Assembly: GCA_013140575.1 (NCBI GenBank)
Contig: JABFSN010000042.1
Location: forward strand, 1-43,135
Reading direction: 5' to 3'
Origin: Phycisphaerales bacterium
Lineage (GTDB): Bacteria; Planctomycetota; Phycisphaerae; UBA1845
Length of the DNA: 43,135 nt
This document shows, in pieces, positions 13,557-39,868 of this stretch. Below the pieces are notes generated by a model. That model was not told where the DNA came from, searched no databases, and saw only the letters and a list, made by a program, of their open reading frames with translations. The position numbers were made by a program, and so were the translations under genes. Numbering within the stretch: the first letter of the stretch is position 1; each line of letters starts with the position of its first letter.

Positions 13557-15079
13557 CCGGTGTCCCTTTCATGCCGCGGTCGCGGTATTAGCCCGCGGAT
13601 CTCGCCCAACGTGAATCGCCCGCCCAGCCACAGTGCGCCGCCCGCCACCATCGCGCCCGTCAGCCCTCTTGTCCAGTCGCCCTCGACCAGCAAGTGCGCC
13701 GCAATCCCGGAGACCAGGACGATGGCCTGGCATACCAGATAGATGGTCGGCAATGTCAGTCGTTCCGTGGTCGGCAGACGGGCGACGGCCATTGCCTGGA
13801 CAACCGAACTGGCCCCGTGACCGGCGGCCTTGGCGAAGATGATCCCGGAAATGCCCCAGCGCTCGACAAAAATCAAAGTGAGCACTAATTGCACGATGGT
13901 CTGAAAGAGTTTGCTCAAGACCACGTGCCCCATTCGTTCGTACGCCATCAACGCCCGATTATTGACCGTGGTCAGGGAGTCGATGTTCATCGCGACGGCC
14001 AGCCACAAGAGGTACTGATGCGACGCAGCGCAGTTGTCGCCGAAAAGAGCGGCAAGTGGTTTGGAAAAAAACAGAATCACGATGGACAGGACGGCGAAGA
14101 CGGAGGCGGAGTAACGGGCGACGCTTCGGTAACCGCGCGTGACGGCGGTTCCTGCGTCCTGCCCGATAAGCGCCGCCAGCGTTGCAAGCAGATAGTGGCC
14201 GAATTGCTGCATGGTTAATGGAATGATGCGTGCTATGTCATAGAGCGCCGCATAGACACCGAGCTGCGCCGTGCCAAAAAGGTGATTGATGATGTACTGG
14301 TCAATGGCCACGTAGGCAAAGGTGAATACCGTGTCCAGCCATGTCAGCACGCTGAACCGGGCGCACCCCGCGGGAATCGCCGGGCGGGCCTTCGGATTGA
14401 AGGTTTTGACCAGAACGGCCGCCGAGACCGCCGTGGTGATGATTGCGGCCACGGTGGCGATGACGCCAAACCACAGGAGCGGGTGGTCACGCATCCATCC
14501 CGACGCGGCCCACCACGTGAACGCGGCGCTGAGGGTGATGAGAATCAACTGGGTGCGCTGGACGATCGATGCCCACACGAACGACATATGTCCAATGACC
14601 GCGGAGGTCGCTAACGCCGAAAGCAGTGCGAACGGTATTAGTAGCAGGTAGACGATCCGCAGACCGGAATCAGTTGTTGCGTCAAGCGCCGTTTCGAGCA
14701 AACCGGGGAACAGCAGGAGCACCAGCACGGCCAGTGCCGCCCCCGACAGGACGTAGCGTAGGAATGCGCGAATCAAGCCGGAACGTTCCTCCGAAGTCTT
14801 CAGTTTCGGGTAGAACGTGGGGAAAATGTTGCTGCCGCCTGGATAGAAGAATGTCTGCACGGCCTGTTGGAATCGCAGGACCAGATTGTATTGTCCCAGA
14901 AGATGGGAGCTTGAGTCAATTCGCGTCAACAGGTAATTGCGAAGGAACGGCAACGGAAAGGCGAGTCCGGTGATAACCACCGCCCAGGCGACGCCGCGAT
15001 GAGCACGCGCCGAAACCGAACGCCCGTCGTCCGCGGGCGTTGCGGCGCCGGCCGGTTCGAGGTCATGATTGGGATTCAT
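13553..15079 (-). CDS. Polysaccharide flippase-like membrane protein (Wzx/MATE-like)
   Basis: A 508-residue polytopic protein with about 12-14 hydrophobic segments, the topology of the multidrug/oligosaccharidyl-lipid/polysaccharide exporter superfamily. Such proteins flip undecaprenyl-linked oligosaccharides to the periplasm. Features include GVAWAVVITGLAFPLPFLRNYLLTRI near the N-terminus, YVAIDQYIINHLFGTAQLGVYA (a membrane helix with a conserved Asp followed by LGVYA, typical of Wzx-like proteins) and paired helices at the C-terminus. The ATG at 15079 (MNPNHDLEPAG) was preferred to a GTG at 15118. It is followed at once by three GT4 genes, which supports a role in exopolysaccharide or O-antigen export. 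Confidence 0.75.
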   Translation of the reverse strand: MNPNHDLEPAGAATPADDGRSVSARAHRGVAWAVVITGLAFPLPFLRNYLLTRIDSSSHLLGQYNLVLRFQQAVQTFFYPGGSNIFPTFYPKLKTSEERSGLIRAFLRYVLSGAALAVLVLLLFPGLLETALDATTDSGLRIVYLLLIPFALLSALATSAVIGHMSFVWASIVQRTQLILITLSAAFTWWAASGWMRDHPLLWFGVIATVAAIITTAVSAAVLVKTFNPKARPAIPAGCARFSVLTWLDTVFTFAYVAIDQYIINHLFGTAQLGVYAALYDIARIIPLTMQQFGHYLLATLAALIGQDAGTAVTRGYRSVARYSASVFAVLSIVILFFSKPLAALFGDNCAASHQYLLWLAVAMNIDSLTTVNNRALMAYERMGHVVLSKLFQTIVQLVLTLIFVERWGISGIIFAKAAGHGASSVVQAMAVARLPTTERLTLPTIYLVCQAIVLVSGIAAHLLVEGDWTRGLTGAMVAGGALWLGGRFTLGEIRGLIPRPRHERDTG

Positions 15080-15249
15080 GTGCAGACATCTTTCATGACC
15101 CGACGACGCAGGCCGCACCGCTACCGAATCCCGCCGTGACCGCGCAAACTCGAACGCGGCCGGACATCATAACGGACCATCGGCGAGTTCCCAGCGGCTG
15201 CCGGGCGCGCAACGCGGATGCACGGATGCACGAATAGAACGGTGCGGGG

Positions 15250-15427
15250 CTCGTGTTCCGTCACACCTAATTTTTCGGGGTGGCACGGGCAAGCGTACTC
15301 GCTTGCCCGCGATCTCCGACTTTCGGCCTCGACTGCGATTTCAACGCGCTGGCGGGTTTCACACGGACAACGGAGTACCGTTGTCCGTGCCACCCGACCC
15401 GAAACTTAATCTGCGTCACAACACTAG
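15250..15427. mobile_element. 178-bp MITE-like inverted-repeat element, copy 1
   Basis: Non-coding element with terminal inverted repeats of about 40 bases. The outer ends read CTCGTGTTCCGTC on the left and GTCACAACACTAG on the right. Inside are two perfect hairpins: a 9-bp stem (15287-15295 with 15300-15308, loop TACT) and a 12-bp stem (15362-15373 with 15378-15389, loop AGTA). A second copy of exactly the same length lies at 20088-20265. The right-hand CTAG (15424-15427) includes the TAG stop codon of the minus-strand methyltransferase gene. The left CTAG has changed to CTCG. No transposase is present, so mobilisation would have to be in trans. Confidence 0.8.
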
Positions 15428-16251
15428 CGTTTTTCAACCGTCACCAGGCAGCGGAACGCGAGCCACCGGCCGAAAGGCGCCAGCCAGGATTCCACTCGCT
15501 CGACCGCGGCGACGGCCCACGACGGGATCAGGCTCGGGAATCCGAAACCGCCGCTCAACGGGTACAGCAGGAAGGACATGCGCCGTCGCTCGACGATCCG
15601 CAGGTCGGGGAATCGCGCTTCGAACCGCCACTTGTCCCGCCAGAAGAGAACGGTGGGAATGGCCGAATTGCTGTCCCACGCCCGGGCCGGGTCGTTGACC
15701 GGTTGATCCGCGGGCATTTCCAACGGCCGAACGCGGCCGTCCACCGGTTCAGGATGGATGAACTTGTATACCGGCCAACTCGCGGGGGACACGTAGGGTT
15801 CAATCATCACCATTCGCCCGCCCGGTTTCAGGACCCGCACCGCCGATTCGAAAAACCGTTGGGGGTAGGCCAGATGGTGCAGCACGTCGATCATGACCAG
15901 ACTGCCCACCGACGCGCGTTTCAGGGGCAGGTCGCATGCGTCGGCCGCGAAATCGAGCCACGGACATGGCGTTACGTCAAACGACAAGATTGGGCGGGTG
16001 CGATCGAGCCCCTGTTGATACTCCTTGAAACAACCCGGTCCGCCGCCGATTTCGACGATGGGCCCGTCGAGTTCGGCCAGCCGGGCGCGGACGGCCGCGA
16101 AAAACTCGCGGTAAATGTCACGCAACAGCGGCTTCCGCCGCCAGACGTGGCGATGATCCGCCAACCTGGCGTCCACGCCGGCGGAGACAGCGTTCGCCGT
16201 GGGGCGCTCAGCGACGATTGACGTTGGCGAAACGGCGGCCGCAACCGTCAT
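15424..16251 (-). CDS. SAM-dependent class I methyltransferase
   Basis: A 275-residue methyltransferase of the Methyltransf_11 type. IVEIGGGPGCFKEY is motif I (SAM-binding glycine loop), followed by SFDVTPCPWLDFAADACDLPL (acidic loop) and SLVMIDVLHHLAYPQRFFESAVRVLKPGGRMVMIEP (motifs III-IV with the LKPGG turn). The C-terminal part, with SFLLYPLSGGFG, is the variable acceptor-binding region. The ATG at 16251 leaves a 26-base gap to the upstream gene; an in-frame GTG at 16323 would overlap it by 46 bases. The stop TAG is formed by the CTAG end of the MITE-like element. A role in modifying a surface glycan or lipid is inferred from the operon. Confidence 0.8.
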   Translation of the reverse strand: MTVAAAVSPTSIVAERPTANAVSAGVDARLADHRHVWRRKPLLRDIYREFFAAVRARLAELDGPIVEIGGGPGCFKEYQQGLDRTRPILSFDVTPCPWLDFAADACDLPLKRASVGSLVMIDVLHHLAYPQRFFESAVRVLKPGGRMVMIEPYVSPASWPVYKFIHPEPVDGRVRPLEMPADQPVNDPARAWDSNSAIPTVLFWRDKWRFEARFPDLRIVERRRMSFLLYPLSGGFGFPSLIPSWAVAAVERVESWLAPFGRWLAFRCLVTVEKR

Positions 16252-16277
16252 GTGCGTGGTTCCATCGGTTTGATCAA

Positions 16278-17750
16278 CTAACGCATTTTCAGTTTGCGAA
16301 ACGCGACCCAGCTCATTCGCCACAATCGCCAGCCGTCGCGAAACCGATGAATGCTGGTGTTGCCGTAGCGGCGCGGACCATAACGCACCGGAATCTCCAG
16401 GATTTTCTGGTCGGCGCGGGCGGCGCCAAAAATAAGGTCAAAATCCCCGAACGGGTCCATTTCTCCGAAATAGCGGCGGTTTGCGGCGATCACTTCGTAC
16501 TGGCATCGCCACAGTGCCTTTGTACCACATAAAGTGTCACGGAAGCGTTGATTGAGCAACCAACTAAACAGCAGACTGAACATTTTGTTGGCCAGTTTGT
16601 TCAGCGGACGCATGGCCTGATCCTCGAGCGGGTAGACCAGGCGCGTGCCGTTGATGAGTTCGCCGCGGCCGGTGACGAGGGCGTCGTAGAATTTGTGCAA
16701 TTCGTCGGGGACGACGGTCAGGTCGGCGTCGAGGATCATCAGGATGTCGCCGGTGGCGGCGGCGAAGCCGCGGCGGACGGCGTCGCCTTTTCCGCCGCGG
16801 CGGCCTTGGTGGACGAGGCGAATGTCGCGGTTTGGGTTGGTGTGGATCTGGTTTTCGATTTCCTGCACGGTGCCGTCGGTGCTGGCGCCGTCGACGAATA
16901 TGATTTCGGTGTGCGACCCCAGTTCGGGCGTGTGACGCACGACGTCGGCGATGTTGCCGCGCTCGTCGTGGGTGGGCACGATGACGCTGCATTTGGGACG
17001 CATGGAACGATCGTGCAGACCCATCGGGCGGGCGACGAAAAACGTCACCAGCGCCAGCTTGTTGAACGGCCAGAATTTGGCGACGACGCGGTTCAGCGCG
17101 GCGGACAGCAGCGGTACGTTTTTGGGCAGCAACAGCTCGGCCGATTTGCGGACGACCTGGAAATCGGTCAACGACAGCAGGTTGACGATGTCGTCGGTCG
17201 ACAGCCAGTTTCCCGACGAGGTTTTCCGGCGCTGTCCGATGCAGGAGGCGGCGGCCAACGCGGGTTCCCACAGGGCGTTGAAATAGGCGACCACCAGCCG
17301 CGTGCGTGAATGGCAGCAGCCGCGGAGGCGCTCGAACACGCGCTGCACGTCACGCATGTGGCCGACGGCGTTGCTGATGACCACGTAATCAAACGACTCG
17401 CCGGTGGCGAAGCGATCGTAGCGGTCGTTGATGATGTTCAGGCGCGGATGCCGGCGTTGGGCGTCGTGCGACAAGGCGCGACTGGGTTCGATGCCGACGC
17501 CGTACGATGGTTGCAGGTCGGCCAACAGATCGCCGGCGCCGCAGCCGATTTCCAGGACGCGGGCGCCCGCGGGGACGTGCAGTTTGAACAGACGGTGCAA
17601 CTGTGCGTAGTAGTAGGCATTCCGGCGGCGCCATTTGCGTTCGGCGGCGAGCTCGGCGCATGGCGCGGGCGCATCCACGGTTGAGGTGAACACGGGGACG
17701 ATCGGTCCCGCAAATGCAGGCGTCATCGTTGGTTCGGCGGCTGCGGACAC
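16278..17750 (-). CDS. Fusion: class I methyltransferase + GT2 (DPM1-like) glycosyltransferase
   Basis: A 490-residue two-domain protein. Residues about 35-245 form a SAM methyltransferase with VLEIGCGAG (65-73) as motif I. Residues about 250-485 form a GT2 domain: MRPKCSVIVPTHDERGNI (250-267), IIFVDGASTDGT, and DAD (341-343, metal and nucleotide-sugar binding) in MILDADLTVVPDE, then FRDTLCGTKALWR. That domain is like dolichyl/undecaprenyl-phosphate mannose-type synthases that load a sugar on a lipid phosphate. There is no membrane anchor downstream. The frame starts with GTG at 17750; an ATG at 17726 is possible. It is the first gene of the cluster and may supply the lipid-linked sugar or the first modified residue. 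Confidence 0.82.
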   Translation of the reverse strand: MSAAAEPTMTPAFAGPIVPVFTSTVDAPAPCAELAAERKWRRRNAYYYAQLHRLFKLHVPAGARVLEIGCGAGDLLADLQPSYGVGIEPSRALSHDAQRRHPRLNIINDRYDRFATGESFDYVVISNAVGHMRDVQRVFERLRGCCHSRTRLVVAYFNALWEPALAAASCIGQRRKTSSGNWLSTDDIVNLLSLTDFQVVRKSAELLLPKNVPLLSAALNRVVAKFWPFNKLALVTFFVARPMGLHDRSMRPKCSVIVPTHDERGNIADVVRHTPELGSHTEIIFVDGASTDGTVQEIENQIHTNPNRDIRLVHQGRRGGKGDAVRRGFAAATGDILMILDADLTVVPDELHKFYDALVTGRGELINGTRLVYPLEDQAMRPLNKLANKMFSLLFSWLLNQRFRDTLCGTKALWRCQYEVIAANRRYFGEMDPFGDFDLIFGAARADQKILEIPVRYGPRRYGNTSIHRFRDGWRLWRMSWVAFRKLKMR

Positions 17751-18249
17751 GAACGGCGTCTCCGAATCCCGAGCGCGGGCGCTTTCCGGGGCCGACGCAA
17801 GGCGGTATGGGTTTATCGGTCATTGGACGGTTGAACTGATTCCGACGCGGCCGGCGTGTGCCGGGACAAGTAGGAGGAGATGGACAGGATTTACAAGATT
17901 AACAGGATTTTGGGGACATCGTGATGACATCGGCGTGCCCGGGATTCTGTTCGGTCGGCAGCCGATTACTTTCTTGATTTGTTCCGGTGATTTCGGGGCG
18001 GCGTTCGGTGGTTTGGGACGGGCGATTTTTCAGGAGGTCCGCCGGCGTCAGAACGCCCGATCCCCGTGTTGAGCCGGAAAGACACGCGTGGAACAAAGCC
18101 TTGCCAATCTGGTACACGGCGACGCCGGAATCTTGTCGGATCGGAGTGCCTGGCTTCGCGAGATCCTTCGCTGCGCTCAGGATGACACGGTCACGGCGAT
18201 CAGGATGATACGGTCACCGTTGCAAGCGGTCCCCAGTTTGGGGATCCAT
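17751..18249. other. Gene-free stretch with two dispersed-repeat-like segments; promoter region of the polysaccharide operon
   Basis: No coding frame with plausible protein content is seen in these 499 bases. Two segments look like dispersed repeats: 17879-17911 (GGACAGGATTTACAAGATT followed by AACAGGATTTT) and 18158-18187 (GATCCTTCGCTGCGCTCAGG followed by ATGACA). Both resemble short sequences I know as widespread intergenic repeats in environmental bacteria, but no second copy is visible in this window. The promoter of the minus-strand polysaccharide cluster should be here; I cannot place it. Confidence 0.4.
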
Positions 18250-19863
18250 TCAGCGAACGTCCGGGGCGTAGCGAGAAATCAAGGCGTCGGCGGAGCGGAT
18301 GCCGTCGATGGCGGCGCTGATGATGCCTCCGGCGTAACCCGCGCCCTCGCCGATGGGGTAGACGTTGTCGAGGCCGATGGCGGTGCGGCGTTCCGGGTCG
18401 CGCACGATCCGTATCGGGGAACTGACCCGACTTTCCGGCGCGGTCACGATGGCATCGTCGCCCGCGAACCCCGGCATTTTTTCATTCAACACGGTCAGTG
18501 CATTCTGAACGGCCAACGCGACGTGCGGGGGCAGGATGGTACGAATGTCGCTCCATTGCCCGCCGAGCGGATAGCTGGTCGCCAGCATCCCGTCTGATGA
18601 TTGCCCGGTCAGATAGTCCGACGCCCGCTGACAGGGGACACGGTAACTGCCGCGTGTCGCGTCGTAGGCGGCGCGCTCCCACATGGCCTGATACGATAGC
18701 CCGGCCAGCGGATCGCGATCGGCTCCGTCCGGTTGAACCGTAACAACCAGTCCGCTGTTGGCGAACGGTCCGTGGCGGCCGGCGCGGCTGGCGCCGTTGG
18801 TGGCGATCAGACCGGGTTGTTCCATGGTGGGCAGGATTTCGCCGCCGGGGCACATGCAGAAACTGTAGCAATCGCGTTCGCCGAGGGCGTGACGAGCGAC
18901 GACGTGATATTCGGCCGACGGCAGGCGCCGGTCGGCCGCACAAGCGCCGTATTGCCAGCCGTCGACGACGGTCTGCGGGTGCTCGACACGCACGCCGAGT
19001 TGGAACGGCCGCGGTTCGATGCGGAATCCGCGATCGTGCAACAGCCGGATGGTGTCGCGGGCGGAATGTCCGATGGCGAGCATTAACGGGCCGACGGTCA
19101 TGGGTTGACCGTTCACGGTGATGGATTGGACGCGGTCGTCCACGCGGAGCACGTCGTCGACGCAGGCGGCGAACCGGATGGCGCCGCCGTGGCGTTCGAT
19201 GAATTCGCGAATTCGCCAGCAGATGGTGGGCAGGCGATCGCTGCCGATGTGCGGGCGGGCATCGATCATGACGTCGGGGTGGGCTCCGTGGCGATATAAC
19301 CAGGCGCGGACGGTCTCGACCAGCGGGTCGTTCAGGCGCGTGTACAGTTTGCCGTCGCTGTAGGTGCCGGCGCCGCCCTCGCCGTACAGCAGGTTGGATT
19401 CCGGGTTGAATTCGCGATGGCGGTAGAACGTGTGCAGGACGTCGCGGTGACGGGTTCGCACCGGCTGACCGCGTTCCAGCACGATCGGCCGGTAGCCGAA
19501 ATCAATCAACCGCAACGCGGCGAACATGCCCGCGGGTCCGAACCCGACGATGACCGGCTCGCGGCCGGCGGGTTCGCGGCCGGGAATGGGGTCGTGATCG
19601 TCGCGCGGGCGAATCACGGCAACGCGTCGGCCGTTCAGCCGTTTCACGACCGCATGTTCCTGCCGCGAACCGTCGCGAAGAGCCAATTCGACGTGGTAGA
19701 CGAAATGCAGATCGTCGTGACGGCGGGCGTCAAGCGAACGGCGGACGGGGGCGTACGTGCCGATGGCCGACGCGGGCAGTTTCAGCCGTTTGGCCGCGAC
19801 GTCGATCAGCCGTTCGGGCGGGTCATCCAGTTCCAGGCGCAGGTCGCGGATCAGCAAGGGCAT
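18250..19863 (-). CDS. FAD-dependent oxidoreductase, COG2509 (NAD(FAD)-utilising dehydrogenase)
   Basis: A 537-residue flavoprotein of the COG2509 family, of unproven reaction. The first about 95 residues form the small N-terminal domain of this family (RLKLPASAIGTYAPVRRSLD). The FAD-binding site follows: GFGPAGMFAALRL (107-119) and the adjoining LERG. LLYGEGGAGTYSDGKLYTRL, then AIGHSARDTIRLL, CMCPGGEILPT and, near the C-terminus, YPIGEGAGYAGGIISAAIDGI are family signatures. The cysteines in FCMCPGGE are a conserved feature. The ATG at 19863 gives the normal full length. It stands alone between non-coding stretches, so its pathway is not indicated by context. Confidence 0.88.
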   Translation of the reverse strand: MPLLIRDLRLELDDPPERLIDVAAKRLKLPASAIGTYAPVRRSLDARRHDDLHFVYHVELALRDGSRQEHAVVKRLNGRRVAVIRPRDDHDPIPGREPAGREPVIVGFGPAGMFAALRLIDFGYRPIVLERGQPVRTRHRDVLHTFYRHREFNPESNLLYGEGGAGTYSDGKLYTRLNDPLVETVRAWLYRHGAHPDVMIDARPHIGSDRLPTICWRIREFIERHGGAIRFAACVDDVLRVDDRVQSITVNGQPMTVGPLMLAIGHSARDTIRLLHDRGFRIEPRPFQLGVRVEHPQTVVDGWQYGACAADRRLPSAEYHVVARHALGERDCYSFCMCPGGEILPTMEQPGLIATNGASRAGRHGPFANSGLVVTVQPDGADRDPLAGLSYQAMWERAAYDATRGSYRVPCQRASDYLTGQSSDGMLATSYPLGGQWSDIRTILPPHVALAVQNALTVLNEKMPGFAGDDAIVTAPESRVSSPIRIVRDPERRTAIGLDNVYPIGEGAGYAGGIISAAIDGIRSADALISRYAPDVR

Positions 19864-20024
19864 GGGGCTGGCCTCGGCGGAAGCGATTCAAGGTTTTACG
19901 TCCCGCCGTCAGTTTAGGCGACTTGACGCTGATTGACCAACGGGATCGCGCGCCTCGCTCCCACGCACTCCGCCGCGCATTCGAAGCTGACCGGACGGGT
20001 GTCGATCACACGCCACGCATCGAC

Positions 20025-20050
20025 CGCGAATCGACTCCCCCACCGCTGAA
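20025..20050 (+). repeat. 26-bp exact dispersed repeat (copy 1)
   Basis: Positions 20025-20050 match the reverse complement of 32763-32788 base for base over 26 bases, beginning CGCGAATCGACTCCCCCACC. The copy here is intergenic and extends into a hairpin (CCACCGCTGAAGCGGTGG); the other copy is inside the coding sequence of a glycosyltransferase. Confidence 0.8.
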
Positions 20051-20087
20051 GCGGTGGGCCACCCGAGGAGACGAGCGGCGCGGGCCA

Positions 20088-20265
20088 CTAGTGCTCCGTC
20101 GCACCTAATTCTTCGGGGTGGCACGGGCAAGCGTACTCGCTTGCCCGTGGTCTCCGACATTCGGCGTGGCCTGCGATTTCGACGTCCCGACCGATCGCAC
20201 ACGGACAACGGAGTACCGTTGTCCGTGCCACCCGACCCGAATCATTAGCTGCGACGGAACACTAG
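20088..20265. mobile_element. 178-bp MITE-like inverted-repeat element, copy 2
   Basis: Same length and architecture as the element at 15250-15427. It begins CTAGTGCTCCGTCGCA and ends TGCGACGGAACACTAG, so its outer arms are nearly perfect inverted repeats with CTAG on both ends. The inner 9-bp (GGGCAAGCG) and 12-bp (CACGGACAACGG) hairpins are conserved exactly, while the spacer between them has diverged. The right CTAG (20262-20265) supplies the TAG stop of the minus-strand sugar dehydrogenase gene, the same relation as in copy 1. CTAG on both sides fits a four-base target duplication. Confidence 0.83.
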
Positions 20266-21818
20266 CCGTCGTTCACGGCGTCGATGAATGTGTTGAAATC
20301 GAACACGTCGACGTCGTTGTCGGCGTTGGCGTCGAACGGTCGGCAGTCGGGGCGGGCGGTGATGTCCGCCGCGGCGCATGATTGGAATGCCCGGAAATCG
20401 ATCAGATCGACGTCGGCGTCGAAATCGACGTCCTGCGGCGGCGAAACCCACACGATGCGGTTCACCTTGTTCTGTTGCAACGAGGTGTAGTAGACGTCGC
20501 CGGTTTGCGGGTGGGTGGTGAACGCGGTCGGTCGGCCGGCGCCGGTCACAAACACCTCGATGGGCGGACCGGCGGCGACCGGGGCGGGAGCCTCGCCGAT
20601 GTCGGCGGGATCGAGAACCCCGATCCAACTGGTGACGTAATCGGCGAACAGAAATCGCCCGCGGTATCGCGGCGGATAGCGTTCGCCGGTGTAAAAGACG
20701 CCCGCGATCGCGGCCCGGGCGAGGTGTCCGACGGGGGACGACTGGTGCGACTGGGTGTGATGAAACGACATGATCGGCGGCGTCACGGGACCGGGGTTGT
20801 CCGGCGTCTGGAGGGTGTCGCATCCGCTATGGGCCGGCGTCGCGTTGAGGTAATTGTCAAACGCGACCGGTCCCTCGTAACAAGGCCAGCCGAAATTCTC
20901 GCCGCCGTGGGCGACGTCGAATTCCTCCCATTTGGACTGCCCGACGTCGCCGGTCCAGATGGTCTCCGGCGTTTGCGACCCCGGCTGCAGGGTAAACCGA
21001 AATGGATTTCGCAGCCCCGACGCCCACACTTTCGAACGGTGGTCATCGGCGTTTCCGGTCCAATAGGGGTTGTCGGGCAGACCGCCCGCGGTTTCGGGAT
21101 CGATGCGCCAGATTTTGCCGGCGGGGGCGTCGAGGTCCTGCGATCGGAATGCCCCGATGTCGTATTCCGGATCGAACAGCGGCGGCGAGAAGCAGATGGG
21201 GTCCATACCGCCGGGATCGGTTTCTTCCCAATGCGCGCCCTCGCCCATGCCCACGAACAGCGATCCATCGTTGGCGAACGCGATGGTGCCGACGGTGTGC
21301 GTGGTGTAGCAGTGAATGAACCCCTGCGATGGGACTTCACCGATCAGGATTTCGAGCGTGGTCAGGTCGGCCACGTTTCCGGTCACGTCGGGCTGCACGC
21401 GCAACAGCCGGCCGTAGGTCGGCGGAATCCCGGAGGGCGGGATGGGTGAGCCCGGGGGCGGCGCGGCCACGTGCACGAAGTAAATCCAGGGCGTGTCCGG
21501 GAAATCAGGATGAAAGGCGATGCCGACCAGGCCGCGGTCGATTAGGAAGTTGACCTCCGCGGAGATGTCGAGGAACGGGGTTGGAAGTAGTACCCTGTTC
21601 GCGGTGACGACGCGGACGCGGCCGGCTTTTTCGAGGATAAACAGGCGCCCGTCGGGCGCGAAGGCCATTCCCACCGGTTCGTCAAAACCGGAGACGTAGG
21701 ATTGCAATTCAAAACCGGGGGGAAGTACGGCGGCGTGCACGCGCAGGGCGCCCGAAATGGAGGTAACGAGCGTCAGCAGCGCAATCGCCAAGCGGCAACG
21801 ATTCGTTCCGTCGCACAT
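20262..21818 (-). CDS. Secreted PQQ-type sugar dehydrogenase with C-terminal dockerin-like domain
   Basis: A 518-residue exported protein. Residues 1-29 are a signal peptide (hydrophobic LAIALLTLVTSISGAL, cleavage near VHA). Residues about 30-440 are a six-bladed propeller of the glucose/sorbosone dehydrogenase family: DEPVGMAFAPDGRLFILEKAGRVRVV, GLVGIAFHPDF, GNADDHRSKVWASGLRNPFRF, WTGDVGQSKWEE and GRFLFADYVTSWIG. Such enzymes oxidise aldose sugars in the periplasm with PQQ. Residues about 457-518 hold two calcium-binding loops (DVDFDADVDLIDF and DANADNDVDVFDF) of the dockerin type I pattern, common on planctomycete surface proteins. The stop TAG lies in the CTAG end of the MITE-like element. 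The substrate is unknown. Confidence 0.83.
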   Translation of the reverse strand: MCDGTNRCRLAIALLTLVTSISGALRVHAAVLPPGFELQSYVSGFDEPVGMAFAPDGRLFILEKAGRVRVVTANRVLLPTPFLDISAEVNFLIDRGLVGIAFHPDFPDTPWIYFVHVAAPPPGSPIPPSGIPPTYGRLLRVQPDVTGNVADLTTLEILIGEVPSQGFIHCYTTHTVGTIAFANDGSLFVGMGEGAHWEETDPGGMDPICFSPPLFDPEYDIGAFRSQDLDAPAGKIWRIDPETAGGLPDNPYWTGNADDHRSKVWASGLRNPFRFTLQPGSQTPETIWTGDVGQSKWEEFDVAHGGENFGWPCYEGPVAFDNYLNATPAHSGCDTLQTPDNPGPVTPPIMSFHHTQSHQSSPVGHLARAAIAGVFYTGERYPPRYRGRFLFADYVTSWIGVLDPADIGEAPAPVAAGPPIEVFVTGAGRPTAFTTHPQTGDVYYTSLQQNKVNRIVWVSPPQDVDFDADVDLIDFRAFQSCAAADITARPDCRPFDANADNDVDVFDFNTFIDAVNDG

Positions 21819-30814: not shown

Positions 30815-30850
30815 CGGGTGCCCCACCCCATTCCTGGGGTGGGGGACTGA
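30815..30850 (-). repeat. REP-like hairpin A (inverted orientation)
   Basis: CGGGTGCCCCACCCC, six-base loop, then GGGGTGGGGGAC. It is the reverse complement of the hairpins at 30982, 31627 and 31678, and lies 31 bases past the feoB stop. No other feature is seen between it and hairpin B (30851-30981). Confidence 0.8.
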
Positions 30851-30981
30851 TGTGACGGGGTGGACGTCGTAATGCGGTTCACATGTTCGCGCCGCCGGGG
30901 ATTCTCATCGTCCGCGGTATGGCGATTCGATTGCCGGGTTCGAAGGACTCCAAACGAGACTGCCTCGTCTCGCCAAGTTCG

Positions 30982-31014
30982 GTCCCCCACCCCCAGGACG
31001 GGGTGGGGCACCCG
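30982..31014 (+). repeat. REP-like hairpin B
   Basis: GTCCCCCACCCC, short loop, then GGGGTGGGGCACCCG. It ends six bases before the stop codon of the RAYT gene and has the same 33-base length as copies C and D. Confidence 0.85.
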
Positions 31015-31020
31015 CGCTCG

Positions 31021-31599
31021 TCAAGTCAGGACCGGCAGGCCGCCGTCCCAGTCCATGGCAATCGGAAGATCATCGCCGGAATCGTAGAATCGAAAGCTAC
31101 TGAATTGCCAGGCTTCGGGTTGTTGAACCAAACCCCGTCGCACCGGGTTGGCGTGAATGTAATCGAGTTTCTCGCGCAGCTTCTCGTCGTGAAACAGGTT
31201 GAAGTCGTACCCGCGCGGTTTCCAGAACGGCCTCTCCCCGGCACCGGTCGCCCATTCGTTGAGCGGCCGCGTACCCAGCGACGCTTGCCTCCGCCAGACG
31301 TCGCGCAGGGCCTCCTTGGCCAGTCGCCCGGAAGCTCCTTTCAGGTATCGAAGCACGACCGAAATCGGCACCGGATCGTCGACGGCCGACAACTGCGGCA
31401 GCACAACAAGGTGGACGTGTTCGGGCATGACGACGTAACCGAGCCAGCGGATCGGACATGATTCACGTGTCCGCGTCATCGCGGTGATGAATGCGTCGCA
31501 CACCGACTCGTGACGGAAGAATTGGAGTCGGCGGTAGGTCGAGACAGTCAGGAAATGAATGTGACCGGGTTCGTCGTGCCGGCGAAGGCGGCTGGGCAT
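31021..31599 (-). CDS. REP-associated tyrosine transposase (RAYT, Y1_Tnp family)
   Basis: A 192-residue single-strand transposase related to IS200/IS605 TnpA. HIHFLTVSTYRRLQFF (13-28) is the family N-terminus. The HUH metal site is MPEHVHLVV (His61 and His63). LREKLDYIHANPVRRGLV (141-158) holds the likely catalytic Tyr147 and the RAYT signature NPVRRGLV. These proteins process REP hairpins, and four hairpins of one kind surround this gene. An exact 11-bp direct repeat, CGTCAAGTCAG, stands at both ends (31019-31029, overlapping the stop, and 31617-31627, 18 bases before the start). The frame looks intact and active. Confidence 0.9.
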   Translation of the reverse strand: MPSRLRRHDEPGHIHFLTVSTYRRLQFFRHESVCDAFITAMTRTRESCPIRWLGYVVMPEHVHLVVLPQLSAVDDPVPISVVLRYLKGASGRLAKEALRDVWRRQASLGTRPLNEWATGAGERPFWKPRGYDFNLFHDEKLREKLDYIHANPVRRGLVQQPEAWQFSSFRFYDSGDDLPIAMDWDGGLPVLT

Positions 31600-31659: not shown

Positions 31660-31677
31660 CGCGTCCTGCCAGATTCC

Positions 31678-31710
31678 GTCCCCCACCCCAGCAATGGGGT
31701 GGGGCACCCG
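31678..31710 (+). repeat. REP-like hairpin D
   Basis: GTCCCCCACCCC, loop AGCAAT, then GGGGTGGGGCACCCG. It follows copy C after an 18-base spacer in the same orientation, giving a tandem pair at the 5' side of the RAYT gene. The rest of 31711-31824 shows no gene. Confidence 0.85.
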
Positions 31711-31824: not shown

Positions 31825-33630
31825 GTGTCGGACGTGATGAAACCGCGGCCGTCATCCGAGCCGCCGCCAGCGTGCCGCACCGCGTCATCGTGCGTCCGGC
31901 CATCATCAGACAACGATCCGCGTCGCCCGCGACGCGTCTTGATGATTACCAGCGCGTTTCCCCCCTGCGGCGGGACGGCCGTGCAGCGGAGTGCGAAATT
32001 CGCCAAATACCTCGGCGGATTCGGATGGACGCCGGTGGTGTGGTCCTCCGGGCCGCGGGGGGACATGCCCGTCGACCACGACATGTGGGCCGACATGCCG
32101 GCGAACCTCGACCACCGCCCGCTTCCGGCCGGTGACACCACCCATTGGCCTCGGATCCTCGCCGCGTTCGCCGGCCGATGCGCCGAGATTCTCGCGATGC
32201 CAAAACCGTTGTCTGATCGCGTCCGACTCCGCGTCGATTCGCTGGTTCGCGCCGCCATCGGCCTGCTTCCGCCCGACGGGCAGGTTTTGTGGGCGTGGCG
32301 CAGCGCGGCCGCCCTCCGCCGCGTGGTTCAACGGGAACGGATCGACGCGATCTACTCGACGTACAGCCCGGCCTCCAATCATCTGCTGGCGTGGCGGTTG
32401 AAACGGGCGACGGGCATTCCCTGGGTGGCCGACTTCCGCGACCTGTGGACGCAGGACTGTTGGTATCCGTTCGCAGGCGGTCCCCGGTGGCGCGTCGCGA
32501 TCGACCGATACCTCGAACGCCGCTTTCTCGAAGACGCCGACGCCCTGGTCTGCACCACGCCCGACCAGACCCGCATCCTGGCCGAACGCGTGCCCCATCT
32601 GCATCGCAAATTCACCACCATCCCCAACGGCGTAGACTTCGCCGATTTCCCCGGTGGGCGTGACCCATGGACGTCATCCGCCGGATCCGCCGCTTTCGAC
32701 GCTGCGACTTCTTTCAGAGCCGCGACCGTAAAGGAGCGGACCTCCGCCGGAAGCCCCGCCGGTTCAGCGGTGGGGGAGTCGATTCGCGGGCGCGAGAATC
32801 TCCCTACGTTCCTTGGTCCCTCCGTCCCATCGTCCCTTCCGCGTAGCGACCGCTTCATCCTCGCCCACGTCGGACGATTCACCCGCGAACGCGTCACCGA
32901 CGAAATGATCGACGGACTGTCCGCCTTCACCGCCGCCCTCAGCGACGACGCCCGCCGGTTCGAACTGCGCATCGTCGGGTGGATGCCCGACGCCCTGCAC
33001 CGGCTTCTGACCGCCGCCGGAATCCCGTTCACCGCCTGTGGCCACGTGCCCCACCGGACGGCTATCCGCGAGATGCTCGACGCCGACGCGCTGCTGTTGC
33101 AATACCCCGATCGCCCCAATGCCGACACGGCCATCTCCGGGAAACTGTTCGAGTACTTCGCGGCCGGGCGACCGGTGGTGATGATCGGACCGCGGACGTC
33201 GATCACCCGGCGGCTGGTCGAAGCGTTGGCGGCCGGCATCGGCATCGACCCGCAACCCGACGCCATCGAACAATCGTTGATGGAAATGTGGCGGCAATGG
33301 CGCGACGGACGAATGCCGACGCACTGTCAGCCGGACAGGTTGACGCCGTTTACCCGCCGGAATCTCACCGGCGAGTTGGCCGATGTGCTCGACGTCGCGT
33401 GCCGCGGTTCGTGTGATTTCACGGACCGGATGATTCCGCTGGAATGCGTTCTGAACGGCGACGCGTCCGTTCCAGCCAGTCCGCCAGTGCGCCGTCCAGT
33501 TGATCGATCGGCCCCGATGGATCGTACCGGACCGTCGCGACCCGCGAACCCAGTGGACGCCACACGGCCTCGTCCGTCGATACGAAAACGGCCAGCGTCG
33601 GCAGTCCCAGCCCTGCCGCCAGGTGCGTGA
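31825..33630 (+). CDS. GT4-like glycosyltransferase with repeat-derived internal insert
   Basis: A 601-residue GT-B type glycosyltransferase. The N-terminal domain opens VLMITSAFPPCGGTAVQRSAKFAKYLGGFGW (38-68), followed by ADFRDLWTQDCWYPF and TTIPNGVDFADFPGG. The C-terminal domain resumes with RFILAHVGRFTRERVTDEM (about 342-360) and ends its core with SGKLFEYFAAGRPVVMIG. Residues about 277-342 between the domains are a low-complexity insert made of several dispersed repeats (32655-32850). The last about 70 residues overlap the convergent heptosyltransferase gene by 212 bases and look unstructured. GTG at 31825 has GGAG five bases upstream; the ATG at 31837 is an alternative. Donor and acceptor are unknown. 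Confidence 0.75.
   Translation: MSDVMKPRPSSEPPPACRTASSCVRPSSDNDPRRPRRVLMITSAFPPCGGTAVQRSAKFAKYLGGFGWTPVVWSSGPRGDMPVDHDMWADMPANLDHRPLPAGDTTHWPRILAAFAGRCAEILAMPKPLSDRVRLRVDSLVRAAIGLLPPDGQVLWAWRSAAALRRVVQRERIDAIYSTYSPASNHLLAWRLKRATGIPWVADFRDLWTQDCWYPFAGGPRWRVAIDRYLERRFLEDADALVCTTPDQTRILAERVPHLHRKFTTIPNGVDFADFPGGRDPWTSSAGSAAFDAATSFRAATVKERTSAGSPAGSAVGESIRGRENLPTFLGPSVPSSLPRSDRFILAHVGRFTRERVTDEMIDGLSAFTAALSDDARRFELRIVGWMPDALHRLLTAAGIPFTACGHVPHRTAIREMLDADALLLQYPDRPNADTAISGKLFEYFAAGRPVVMIGPRTSITRRLVEALAAGIGIDPQPDAIEQSLMEMWRQWRDGRMPTHCQPDRLTPFTRRNLTGELADVLDVACRGSCDFTDRMIPLECVLNGDASVPASPPVRRPVDRSAPMDRTGPSRPANPVDATRPRPSIRKRPASAVPALPPGA
32655..32850 (+). repeat. Block of dispersed repeats inside a glycosyltransferase gene
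   Basis: Within the coding frame, 32717-32739 resembles the intergenic repeat at 28329-28350 in reverse, and 32763-32788 is an exact 26-base match to the reverse complement of 20025-20050. A pyrimidine-rich tail (32811-32840, ACGTTCCTTGGTCCCTCCGT and on) resembles another common intergenic repeat. Together they form a chain of different repeat families inserted without breaking the frame. Confidence 0.75.
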
Positions 33631-37468: not shown

Positions 37469-39868
37469 ATGTTGAACGATCGACGTTGCGTTGCCGCATT
37501 GTTTGTGGCGTTGTGTGCCGTGGTGGAGTGTCAGGCGTTGGGGGGACCGACTCCGGGCGATCTCGATGGCGACGGCGACATCGACGCCTGCGACTTCGCC
37601 CGATTCGCCGACTGCACGACCGGTCCGGACGAAGGCCCGCTCGGTCCGGGTTGCGACCCGGCGGACGGGGACGGCGACGACGACGTTGACCTGCCTGATT
37701 GGGGTTCGTTTCAATCTCGATTCGGGACGGGCGTGTTTTCCGGGCCGCTCTTCCCCGGATTGTCGTTGCCCACCGGAATCAGCCCCTTTTCCGTTGTCTC
37801 GGCCGATCTGAACGGCGACGGAGTCCCCGACCTGGCCGCCGTGAATTTCACCTGCTTTGACTGCATCGGCACGGTCTCCGTGCTCATCAGCAACAATAAC
37901 GGCACCTTCGCGGAGCACGAAACCTACGGTGTGGGATTCACTCCGGGCGGGCTCGCGGCCGGCGATCTGGATAACGATGACGATGTCGATTTGGTGACCG
38001 CGAACATCACCGGCAACAATGTTTCGTTGTTGCGCAACAACGGCGACGGGACATTCGCCGCCGACGTGACCTTCGACGTGGATAACGTCCCATTTTACGT
38101 TACCATGTCCGACTTGGACGGCGACGACGACCTCGACCTGGCCACCGCCAATTTCGACTGCCCCACCTGCACCGGCAGCGTCTCCGTGCTGCGCAACAGC
38201 GGCGTCGGAACGTTCGCCCCGCACGTTGACTTTGTCGTGGGAAGCAGACCGGTGTTCGTGACAGCCGCCGATCTGGACGGCGACCAGGATATGGACCTGG
38301 CGACGGCCAACTCCGAGGGAAGCAACGTGACCATGCTGCGCAACAGCGGCAATGCCGCCTTCGCCCCCCAAGTGAACTTCGCGGTGGGCGCCACCCCCCG
38401 CTCGGTCGTCGCCGCCAAACTGGACGGCGACGACGACGTTGACCTGGTCGCCGTAAACGCCGCGGACGGCACGATTTCCGTCCTGTTGAACAACGGCAAT
38501 GCCGCGTTCGTCACCCAGGCGCCCCTCGACGTGGGGATGCTTCCGATCTCGGTGATCGCGGCCGACATGGACGACGACGGCGACTTCGATCTGGCGACGG
38601 CCAATTTGAATGATAATGCCGTGTCGGTGCTGCTCAACAATGGAAATGCAGCCTTCGCCGCGCCGGCGGACTACGCGGTGGGGCCCGCCCCGCGCTTCGT
38701 CACGACTGGCGACATGGACGACGACGGCGACCCCGACCTGGTGGTGGCCAATTGCCATTGCGCGACCGGCGACGATTTCGGGAGCGTGACCATTCTGCCC
38801 AACAACGGTGACGGGACCTTCGCAATGAACTACGCGACCGGGCCGGGACCGACCTCCGTCGCCGTCGCCGACCTGAACGGCGACGGTCACCCCGACCTGG
38901 CTACGGCCAACGTCGGCAGCGCCAATGTTTCCGTACTCCTGAATCTGGGCGACGGCACGTTCGGAGTTCACACGACGTTTGCCGTGGGGGCAGGACCGGT
39001 GTCCGTCGCGGCCGGCAACGTGGATGGAGATGCGGATGTTGATTTGGTGACCGCCAACGTCTCCAACGGCACCGTCTCCATGCTGCGCAACAACGGGAAC
39101 GGCACCTTCGCCACGCACGTCACCCATGGCGTGGGCTTCCTGGCCTTGCCGAACGCCGTCACCGTGGCCGACCTGGACGGCGACGACGACATCGATATTG
39201 CCAGCGCGAACAACAACGGCAAAGCCTCGGTGCTGCGCAACAACGGCGACGGCACCTTTGCGACGCAGGTGAGCCATTCGGTGGGGAGCGGTTCGTCCCA
39301 CATCACCGCGGCCAACCTGAACGGCGACGACTTCATCGACCTGGCCACGTCAAACTACATTAGCGACAACGTCACCGTCCTGCTGAACAATGGCATCGGA
39401 TCCTTCGCGTTCGGCGTAAACCAAGTGGTGGGAAGCAACCCGTTTTCCGTCACGGCCGCCGATGTGGACGGTGACGGAGACCTGGATCTGACCGCGACGA
39501 ACGACTTCGACGACACCGTCTCCCTGCTGCGCAACAACGGCAATGGGACGTTCATGGCGCAGGTGACCTTCGGGGTGGGGATGCGCCCGGCCTCCATCGC
39601 CGGCGCCGATCTGGACGGCGACGGAGACCTCGAGCTGGTCACCGCGAACATCGGCGAGAACAACGTCTCCGTATTGCTTAACAACGGCGGCGGCGCCTTC
39701 GCGACACACGTGACCTACGGGGCGGGATTGGGCCCGCGATCCGTCGCGGCCGCCGACCTGGACGGCGACGGGGACCTCGACCTGGTCACGGCGAACCCCG
39801 GCGGCAACAACGTCTCCGTGCTGCTCAACCGGCGGATTCGGCAGGATTGCGGTCCCGGGAGCTCATGA
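37469..39868 (+). CDS. Secreted FG-GAP/VCBS repeat protein with N-terminal dockerin-like region
   Basis: A 799-residue exported protein. Residues 1-24 are a signal peptide (VAALFVALCAVVECQALG). Next come two calcium loops of the dockerin pattern, DLDGDGDIDACDFARF and DGDGDDDVDLPDWGSF, before residue 90. Fourteen repeats of about 50 residues follow, each with a DLDGDGDLDLATAN-type calcium loop and a SVLLNNGNGTFA turn; together they should fold as beta-propeller blades of the FG-GAP type. Such proteins are adhesins or surface-attached binding proteins. There is no anchor, catalytic domain or C-terminal sorting signal. Dockerin at the N-terminus is the opposite of the sugar dehydrogenase in this window. 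The gene is divergent from cysC. Confidence 0.88.
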   Translation: MLNDRRCVAALFVALCAVVECQALGGPTPGDLDGDGDIDACDFARFADCTTGPDEGPLGPGCDPADGDGDDDVDLPDWGSFQSRFGTGVFSGPLFPGLSLPTGISPFSVVSADLNGDGVPDLAAVNFTCFDCIGTVSVLISNNNGTFAEHETYGVGFTPGGLAAGDLDNDDDVDLVTANITGNNVSLLRNNGDGTFAADVTFDVDNVPFYVTMSDLDGDDDLDLATANFDCPTCTGSVSVLRNSGVGTFAPHVDFVVGSRPVFVTAADLDGDQDMDLATANSEGSNVTMLRNSGNAAFAPQVNFAVGATPRSVVAAKLDGDDDVDLVAVNAADGTISVLLNNGNAAFVTQAPLDVGMLPISVIAADMDDDGDFDLATANLNDNAVSVLLNNGNAAFAAPADYAVGPAPRFVTTGDMDDDGDPDLVVANCHCATGDDFGSVTILPNNGDGTFAMNYATGPGPTSVAVADLNGDGHPDLATANVGSANVSVLLNLGDGTFGVHTTFAVGAGPVSVAAGNVDGDADVDLVTANVSNGTVSMLRNNGNGTFATHVTHGVGFLALPNAVTVADLDGDDDIDIASANNNGKASVLRNNGDGTFATQVSHSVGSGSSHITAANLNGDDFIDLATSNYISDNVTVLLNNGIGSFAFGVNQVVGSNPFSVTAADVDGDGDLDLTATNDFDDTVSLLRNNGNGTFMAQVTFGVGMRPASIAGADLDGDGDLELVTANIGENNVSVLLNNGGGAFATHVTYGAGLGPRSVAAADLDGDGDLDLVTANPGGNNVSVLLNRRIRQDCGPGSS

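Follow-up and report, generated by a model that had tools for sequence, protein, structure and literature searches.

A putative 178-bp IS630-type MITE with a REPIN core in a Phycisphaerales genome

TA is the target of the Correia and RUP elements. IS630 is said to prefer the TA within 5'-CTAG-3', a preference attributed to Tenzen and Ohtsubo in 1991. Correia elements of Neisseria and RUP of Streptococcus pneumoniae are named as IS630-derived in passages of a published study (PMC2817692). A canonical REP is described, in the relevant part of another paper, as GTAG or GTGG lying 0–2 nt 5' of a 7–20-bp stem with a 2–5-nt loop (PMC6006769). Two inverted REPs constitute a REPIN (passages of PMC3116915), and the GTAG termini of REPs often supply the TAG stop of flanking ORFs (excerpts of PMC3733652). 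Here we describe a 178-bp element that is very probably a non-autonomous IS630-type MITE carrying a REPIN as internal cargo, a composite of two transposition systems.

The element and its copies in the genome

The window, that is the whole 43,135-bp stretch of DNA analysed, is contig C159 of a 5.05-Mb genome in 268 contigs. An initial annotation had placed a second 178-bp copy of a repeat at 20088–20265, and the element is present there (Table 1). It is an imperfect inverted repeat over its full length with CTAG at either end, and, as had been noted, the adjacent minus-strand gene takes its TAG stop from the right-hand CTAG. Aligned, the stretches 15250–15428 and 20088–20266 are 85% identical. 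The relation to a stop codon, described as common to the two copies, is shared by both right ends, while the left end of copy 1 departs from CTAG. That two of two copies lie at stops had been judged hard to explain by chance. Chance is indeed excluded, because CTAG is under-represented in the window (7 occurrences against a shuffle mean of 19.7) and many more copies with the same ends exist, but the position is not general: the stop of an adjoining gene lies inside an end at 19 of the 55 matched places found in the genome, counted before any were dropped.

Table 1 Features of the element at 20088–20265, of copy 1 and of the adjoining genes (window coordinates).
Feature	Position	Strand	Remarks
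178-bp IS630-type MITE with REPIN core (putative), copy 2	20088..20265	+	
Left terminal inverted repeat	20088..20117	+	Target TA (20089–20090) within first CTAG
REP hairpin 1	20118..20149	+	GTGG foot, then 12-bp perfect stem, TACT loop
Diverged spacer separating both REPs	20150..20199		Conservation 0.77
REP hairpin 2, inverted	20200..20231	-	12-bp stem, AGTA loop (TACT on other strand), GTGG foot
Right terminal inverted repeat	20236..20265	-	Duplicated TA (20263–20264) within last CTAG
Glucose/sorbosone dehydrogenase-like gene	20262..21818	-	TAG stop inside right-end CTAG of copy 2
Copy 1, same element, subfamily c1	15250..15427	+	Right end CTAG, left end CTCG
Methyltransferase-domain gene	15424..16323	-	TAG stop inside right CTAG of copy 1

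Two further features of the window were recorded. At 20021–20065, 22 bp before the left end of the element, there is another hairpin, this one with a GGGTGG foot; an inverted relative of it is found 12.7 kb away (32748–32792). On the plus strand at 37469–39868 there is a protein-coding array of repeats of about 147 bp with D-x-D-G-D-like motifs, which would appear to encode an FG-GAP/VCBS-type repeat protein.

The genome-wide census that the initial annotation had suggested was run. The search at DNA level, in which 40 of 162 first-look candidates were scored, returned 88 matches, with reverse-complement self matches making up many of these. Merging these, together with weaker places taken from the end pattern, left 55 non-overlapping matched places, 38 of them near full length. 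At up to three mismatches the end pattern occurred no more often in this genome than its control did (159 and 144 matches for the pattern, 182 and 186 for the control, among the matches listed), so end-pattern places were followed only if they had few mismatches or were paired at element spacing. Three of the 55 places match the core only, and our confidence in the composite reading was lowered very slightly on this account. Two of the 55, in contig C44, represent the halves of a single longer element. Averaged over columns of the 38 near-full copies, conservation is 0.98 in each hairpin region, 0.77 in the spacer and 0.89 and 0.85 in the ends, and thus the contrast of like stems and a diverged spacer, first seen in the two window copies, holds across the genome.

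The copies fall into two subfamilies, which correspond to the two copies in the window. In subfamily c1, 11 of 13 aligned copies (at least 92% identity) stand one or two changes from the consensus, which appears to be a sign of recent spread. Tandem copy pairs occur in contigs C134 and C253, each pair having one CTAG in common. At 178 bp the element is too short for a transposase, and its copies are many and dispersed. A hairpin pair of the same kind was also observed between more divergent ends (CTAGTGGACCGATCC / CTAGTGGGACGATCC) at C264:54712–54886 (L083), and pairs of this kind with a more divergent end design lie at C194:19631 and C194:25392 (L035); this perhaps amounts to another type of end around the same core.

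IS630-type ends, target sites and stop codons

A search for a transposase with matching terminal repeats had been proposed as a check, and one is found in the same genome, in contig C42. The C42 element is 1,267 bp long, and its ends are of the same design as the ~30-bp ends of the MITE. Its two overlapping frames encode an HTH_32 protein and a DDE_3 protein (Pfam); the second ORF, which matches DDE_3, scores 135.7 bits against the NCBIfam IS630 model, whose cut-off is 100. An A7 run where the two ORFs meet is kept in a relative from the genome G016 (71% identical) and suggests that the transposase may be expressed by slippage. This is the sole copy of the transposase found in the genome (E ≤ 1e-5). 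The ends of the C42 element differ from those of the MITE at several positions, and it may be a relative instead of the active source. It carries no such REP hairpin itself and does not sit at a stop codon, since the nearest called gene leftward, which is oriented away from the element, ends at a distance of 537 bp. Because the ends match those of this IS630-family IS, and because 21 of 26 target sites are TA in CTAG, we class the 178-bp element, by its sequence, as an IS630-type MITE.

The IS630-family relative in G016 has its left CTAG within the stop codon of the preceding gene (C28:123821–124384, L126), presumably ftsW-like as judged by eye. At a contig end of the same genome (C77:3–254, L127) the other IS630 end stands ahead of another gene, which by eye we take to be murG-like. 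L126 and L127 are possibly one IS630 element split by assembly.

Target preference and TA duplication were read from the insertions themselves, without an empty site; none was seen in 40 relatives searched, a set without a same-genus genome. From the 55 matched places, 4 cut by contig ends and 23 in which TA is not kept at each end (one of these 23 being window copy 1) were removed, and the 28 copies kept gave 26 target sites after the two tandem pairs were merged. CTAG is present at 21 of these 26, whereas in an 843-kb sample it surrounds 188 of 12,661 TA dinucleotides, the 188 including 26 that belong to copies. One outer base differs at the remaining five sites, which would fit duplication of TA only; later mutation could do likewise. 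Duplication of the 4-bp CTAG is disfavoured, as the two ends differ at these five sites.

Genes were called by a purpose-written gene finder trained on long ORFs. The 26 reconstructed sites comprise 10 stop codons, 16 intergenic positions and no gene interior, whereas the 162 other CTAG sites of the 843-kb sample comprise 22, 69 and 71, respectively; the insertions strongly avoid gene interiors (0/26 versus 71/162, p = 1.5e-6). The share of stops is enriched relative to all CTAG sites (p = 0.004), but no clear excess is seen over the other CTAG sites outside genes (10/26 versus 22/91, p = 0.21). Since insertions in genes are unseen and the latter comparison gives p = 0.21, special stop-codon targeting is not needed, although a mild preference, with an odds ratio of about 2, is possible. 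Stop-codon placement would come mainly from CTAG targeting and the loss of gene-breaking insertions. The first base of the element after the TA is G, such that a TAG or TAA stop survives insertion; at the copy in contig C178 the reconstructed stop is TAA and is now TAG. The CTAG ends, the mobile-element character and the recurrent stop position of the earlier reading thus stand, with no special targeting required. A preference for CTAG, which is rare and safe at TAG stops, can alone mimic adaptive placement at gene ends, a trap when intergenic hairpins are taken as regulatory.

The hairpin core and its RAYT genes

The core comprises two perfect 12-bp hairpins in facing orientation at a distance of 78 bp. 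Immediately 5' of the foot of each is GTGG, and from that foot either loop reads TACT. Because it agrees with the canonical REP description, as given in part of PMC6006769, the core alone is on sequence grounds a REPIN, with canonical REPs in doublet form (REPIN/BIME). These REPs are not the outer boundary of the mobile unit, since the 178-bp unit extends ~30 bp beyond each of them.

With at most one mismatch, the hairpin pattern occurs at 231 places in the genome compared with 8 for the reversed control. A hand count of the first 50 distinct places listed placed 20 within the element's copies, 2 within one decayed copy and 28 outside, and the 843-kb sample holds 36 hairpins in matched places and 13 outside. 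GTGG stands at the foot in 43 of these 49; the three outside hairpins that lack it are probably there by chance. Neighbouring hairpins are spaced by 78 bp in 16 of 18 pairs in the element and in three of four pairs outside. Ends of IS630 type at up to four mismatches were found at none of 22 testable flanks of outside REPs (18 loci, with five hairpins lacking GTGG omitted), while three flanks carry ends at 5–6 mismatches, which may be decayed ends.

The genome has eight Y1_Tnp matches. On either side of one of them, the RAYT gene at locus L124, are the same hairpin pairs (119 bp at 80%), and REP hairpin 1 of the element is the same hairpin as the one beside this gene. The L124 RAYT fragment reaches the Pfam Y1_Tnp cut-off; against the REP-associated tyrosine transposase model it gives E 2.7e-19 and 69.5 bits, below the cut-off of 80. 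RAYT genes of two other genomes, G019 and G026 (60% and 51% identical), stand between related hairpins. The initial annotation had read the hairpins as selected; their conservation is borne out, but the same REPs recur at many places in the genome, including the surroundings of a RAYT gene.

Other RAYT loci were observed. The window itself has a RAYT gene at 31021–31599 on the minus strand (NF047646, 105.8 bits, exceeding its cut-off of 80). The REP-like hairpins that flank this gene (GTGCCCCACCCC...GGGGTGGGG), at 30815–30850, 30979–31017 and 31675–31710, are of a different kind and its own. In G026, three equal-scoring RAYT matches follow in direct succession, 1,578 bp apart (C1:2614693–2618076, L151–L153), with the same short GTGTGCCACTGCTC hairpins near each, an arrangement that resembles an amplified RAYT-REP unit.

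We compared the element across the order. The end pattern (up to three mismatches) is found in 9 of 114 genomes, all of one family, with one control match in another genome. Between the ends, six of the nine have GTGG-type REP cores as judged by eye (this genome, G000, and G016, G012, G017, G084 and G091) and three have other cores (G090, G006 and G087). The REP doublets of G016 and G012 are of another sequence; by eye, doublets of GTGG type occur in G017 and G084 and a single REP of that type in G091. Both ends are within the threshold in G016, G012, G084, G087, G090 and G091, and one only in G017 and G006. A transposase match is present in 5 of the 9 genomes with ends and 10 of 42 without (p = 0.10), a co-occurrence that is suggestive only.

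The REP pattern of G016 occurs 96 times compared with 2 for its control, and REPs lie on either side of a RAYT gene at C28:81113. Twenty stretches of G016 were selected for apparent pairs or a RAYT, and 17 of them held 21 doublets. Ends at up to four mismatches are present on both sides of 10 of the 21 and on at least one side of 19; random stretches, taken from loci that include such elements, reach this criterion in 0.9% of cases. The G016 core matches its own RAYT loci at E 0.003 and 0.007, and matches better those of G006 (3.5e-10) and G017 (3.6e-7). For the G017 core there is one weak own match (E 0.022) and a better one to L124 of the present genome (5.8e-5). Cores of G084, G090, G006 and G087 gave no match to a RAYT locus of their own, and the single own match in G091 is the element itself within a RAYT locus. 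The proposition that the core consists of the REPs of the host's own RAYT thus failed for the nine genomes as a whole; it is clear in G000 and is supported in G016 by the REPs around the RAYT at C28:81113, with G012 outside the test.

Alternative readings, proposed origin and comparison with known systems

One account would have the element spread, or retained, for acting as a bidirectional transcription terminator at gene ends, with the stop position and conserved stems being adaptive. The hairpins are highly conserved, and the minus strand folds at −114.4 kcal/mol compared with a shuffle mean of −65.8 (z −11.9), but so strong a fold is as expected of a long inverted repeat. Four of the five copies in convergent gaps sit at a stop and, as described above, stops are enriched relative to all CTAG sites, but not clearly relative to non-genic ones. 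Convergent gaps hold 5 of 23 copies compared with 67 of 507 gaps (three of the 26 sites, at contig edges, left out), a rise that is not significant (p = 0.22), and 13 of the 23 copies are in codirectional and 5 in divergent gaps. No terminator-like site surrounds copy 2: we found no Rho-independent terminator, as a GC-rich stem followed by a T run, in 19700–20700, and no Rfam match above the gathering score in 15000–20700. The conservation does not point to termination, since the hairpins are REPs that also flank a RAYT gene and stand at numerous sites elsewhere. We therefore rejected the bidirectional terminator, for want of a terminator-like site and of a significant convergent excess, and regard this account as very improbable; an effect of the element on neighbouring mRNA is possible.

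Two other origins were considered. An ordinary IS630-derived MITE could own its core, the REPs elsewhere having been copied out of it, and the G016 doublets, nearly all with IS630-type ends on at least one side and about half on both, are what it would expect. Against it, the C42 element lacks the hairpin, the 22 flanks of outside REPs in this genome are without ends at up to four mismatches (three at 5–6), and the RAYT genes of G019 and G026 are flanked by related hairpins where neither transposase nor ends were found; we consider this improbable, if slightly less so than the terminator. That the unit is a REPIN mobilised by RAYT only, with its CTAG ends a fortuitous extension, is hardly credible: REPIN core and RAYT are both present in the genome, but the copies end at IS630-type ends, tandem pairs have one common CTAG, and the sequences flanking the copies beyond these ends differ.

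We propose instead, for the IS630-type MITE with REPIN cargo, that an IS630-family transposase acting in trans, from the C42 element or a relative, would recognise the ~30-bp ends and excise the element. Insertion would take place at TA, with CTAG strongly preferred, and the TA would be duplicated. The copies themselves show both the ends and the target preference, while the chemistry of excision and insertion is extrapolated from IS630 members that have been studied. CTAG is a rare sequence here. Any insertion within a gene would presumably be lost, the survivors being intergenic or exactly in stop codons, where an element that begins with G would rebuild TAG from TA and G and leave the protein unchanged. 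The REP core, of the kind that flanks the L124 RAYT, would travel with the IS630-type ends, and the likeness of its stems may be kept by RAYT recognition or by conversion with the many other copies.

It is conceivable, if unlikely, that the IS630 ends are a chassis reloaded repeatedly with host REP pairs, the IS630 transposase moving the element and RAYT keeping or replacing the core. We had rated this a somewhat better prospect, and lowered it because the core is not that of the own RAYT across the nine genomes. The motif CGGG, shared by the terminal repeat and the REP foot where they join, at the inner end of the former, is in line with such reloading, and so is the presence of the ends in nine genomes of one family with GTGG-type REP cores in six and other cores in three. 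Against it, the cores of G016 and G017 match RAYT loci of other genomes better than their own, and a single ancient composite from which all descend is thus an alternative. Were it true, DDE cut-and-paste and HUH-tyrosine single-strand chemistries would jointly shape one element. On the main reading already, a REP doublet that is moved by something other than its RAYT would make RAYT-dependent conservation separable from movement within one genome.

In the literature searched, in which subscription papers were mostly outside the search, we found no description of an IS630-type MITE with a REP core. The element is like the Correia and RUP MITEs in being short and protein-less with IS630-type ends, while its core, unlike anything stated for them in the passages of PMC2817692, is the REP doublet of a resident RAYT. 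It resembles REPIN/BIME sequences, in the terms of the relevant part of PMC6006769, in having GTGG directly 5' of a 12-bp stem, a 4-nt loop and inverted pairs that also flank a RAYT gene. The REPINs associated with RAYT (TnpA-REP) appear in passages of PMC3116915 as two inverted REPs; in the present element the REPs are enclosed by DDE-transposon ends. The preference for CTAG is that of IS630, whereas the element differs from IS630 in being non-autonomous and in its REPIN core. Unlike the GTAG-type REPs of the excerpts of PMC3733652, the TAG here is formed by the IS630-type target and end and not by the REP foot. The unexpected part is thus the combination of two unrelated transposition systems in one unit, an IS630-type MITE with a REPIN.
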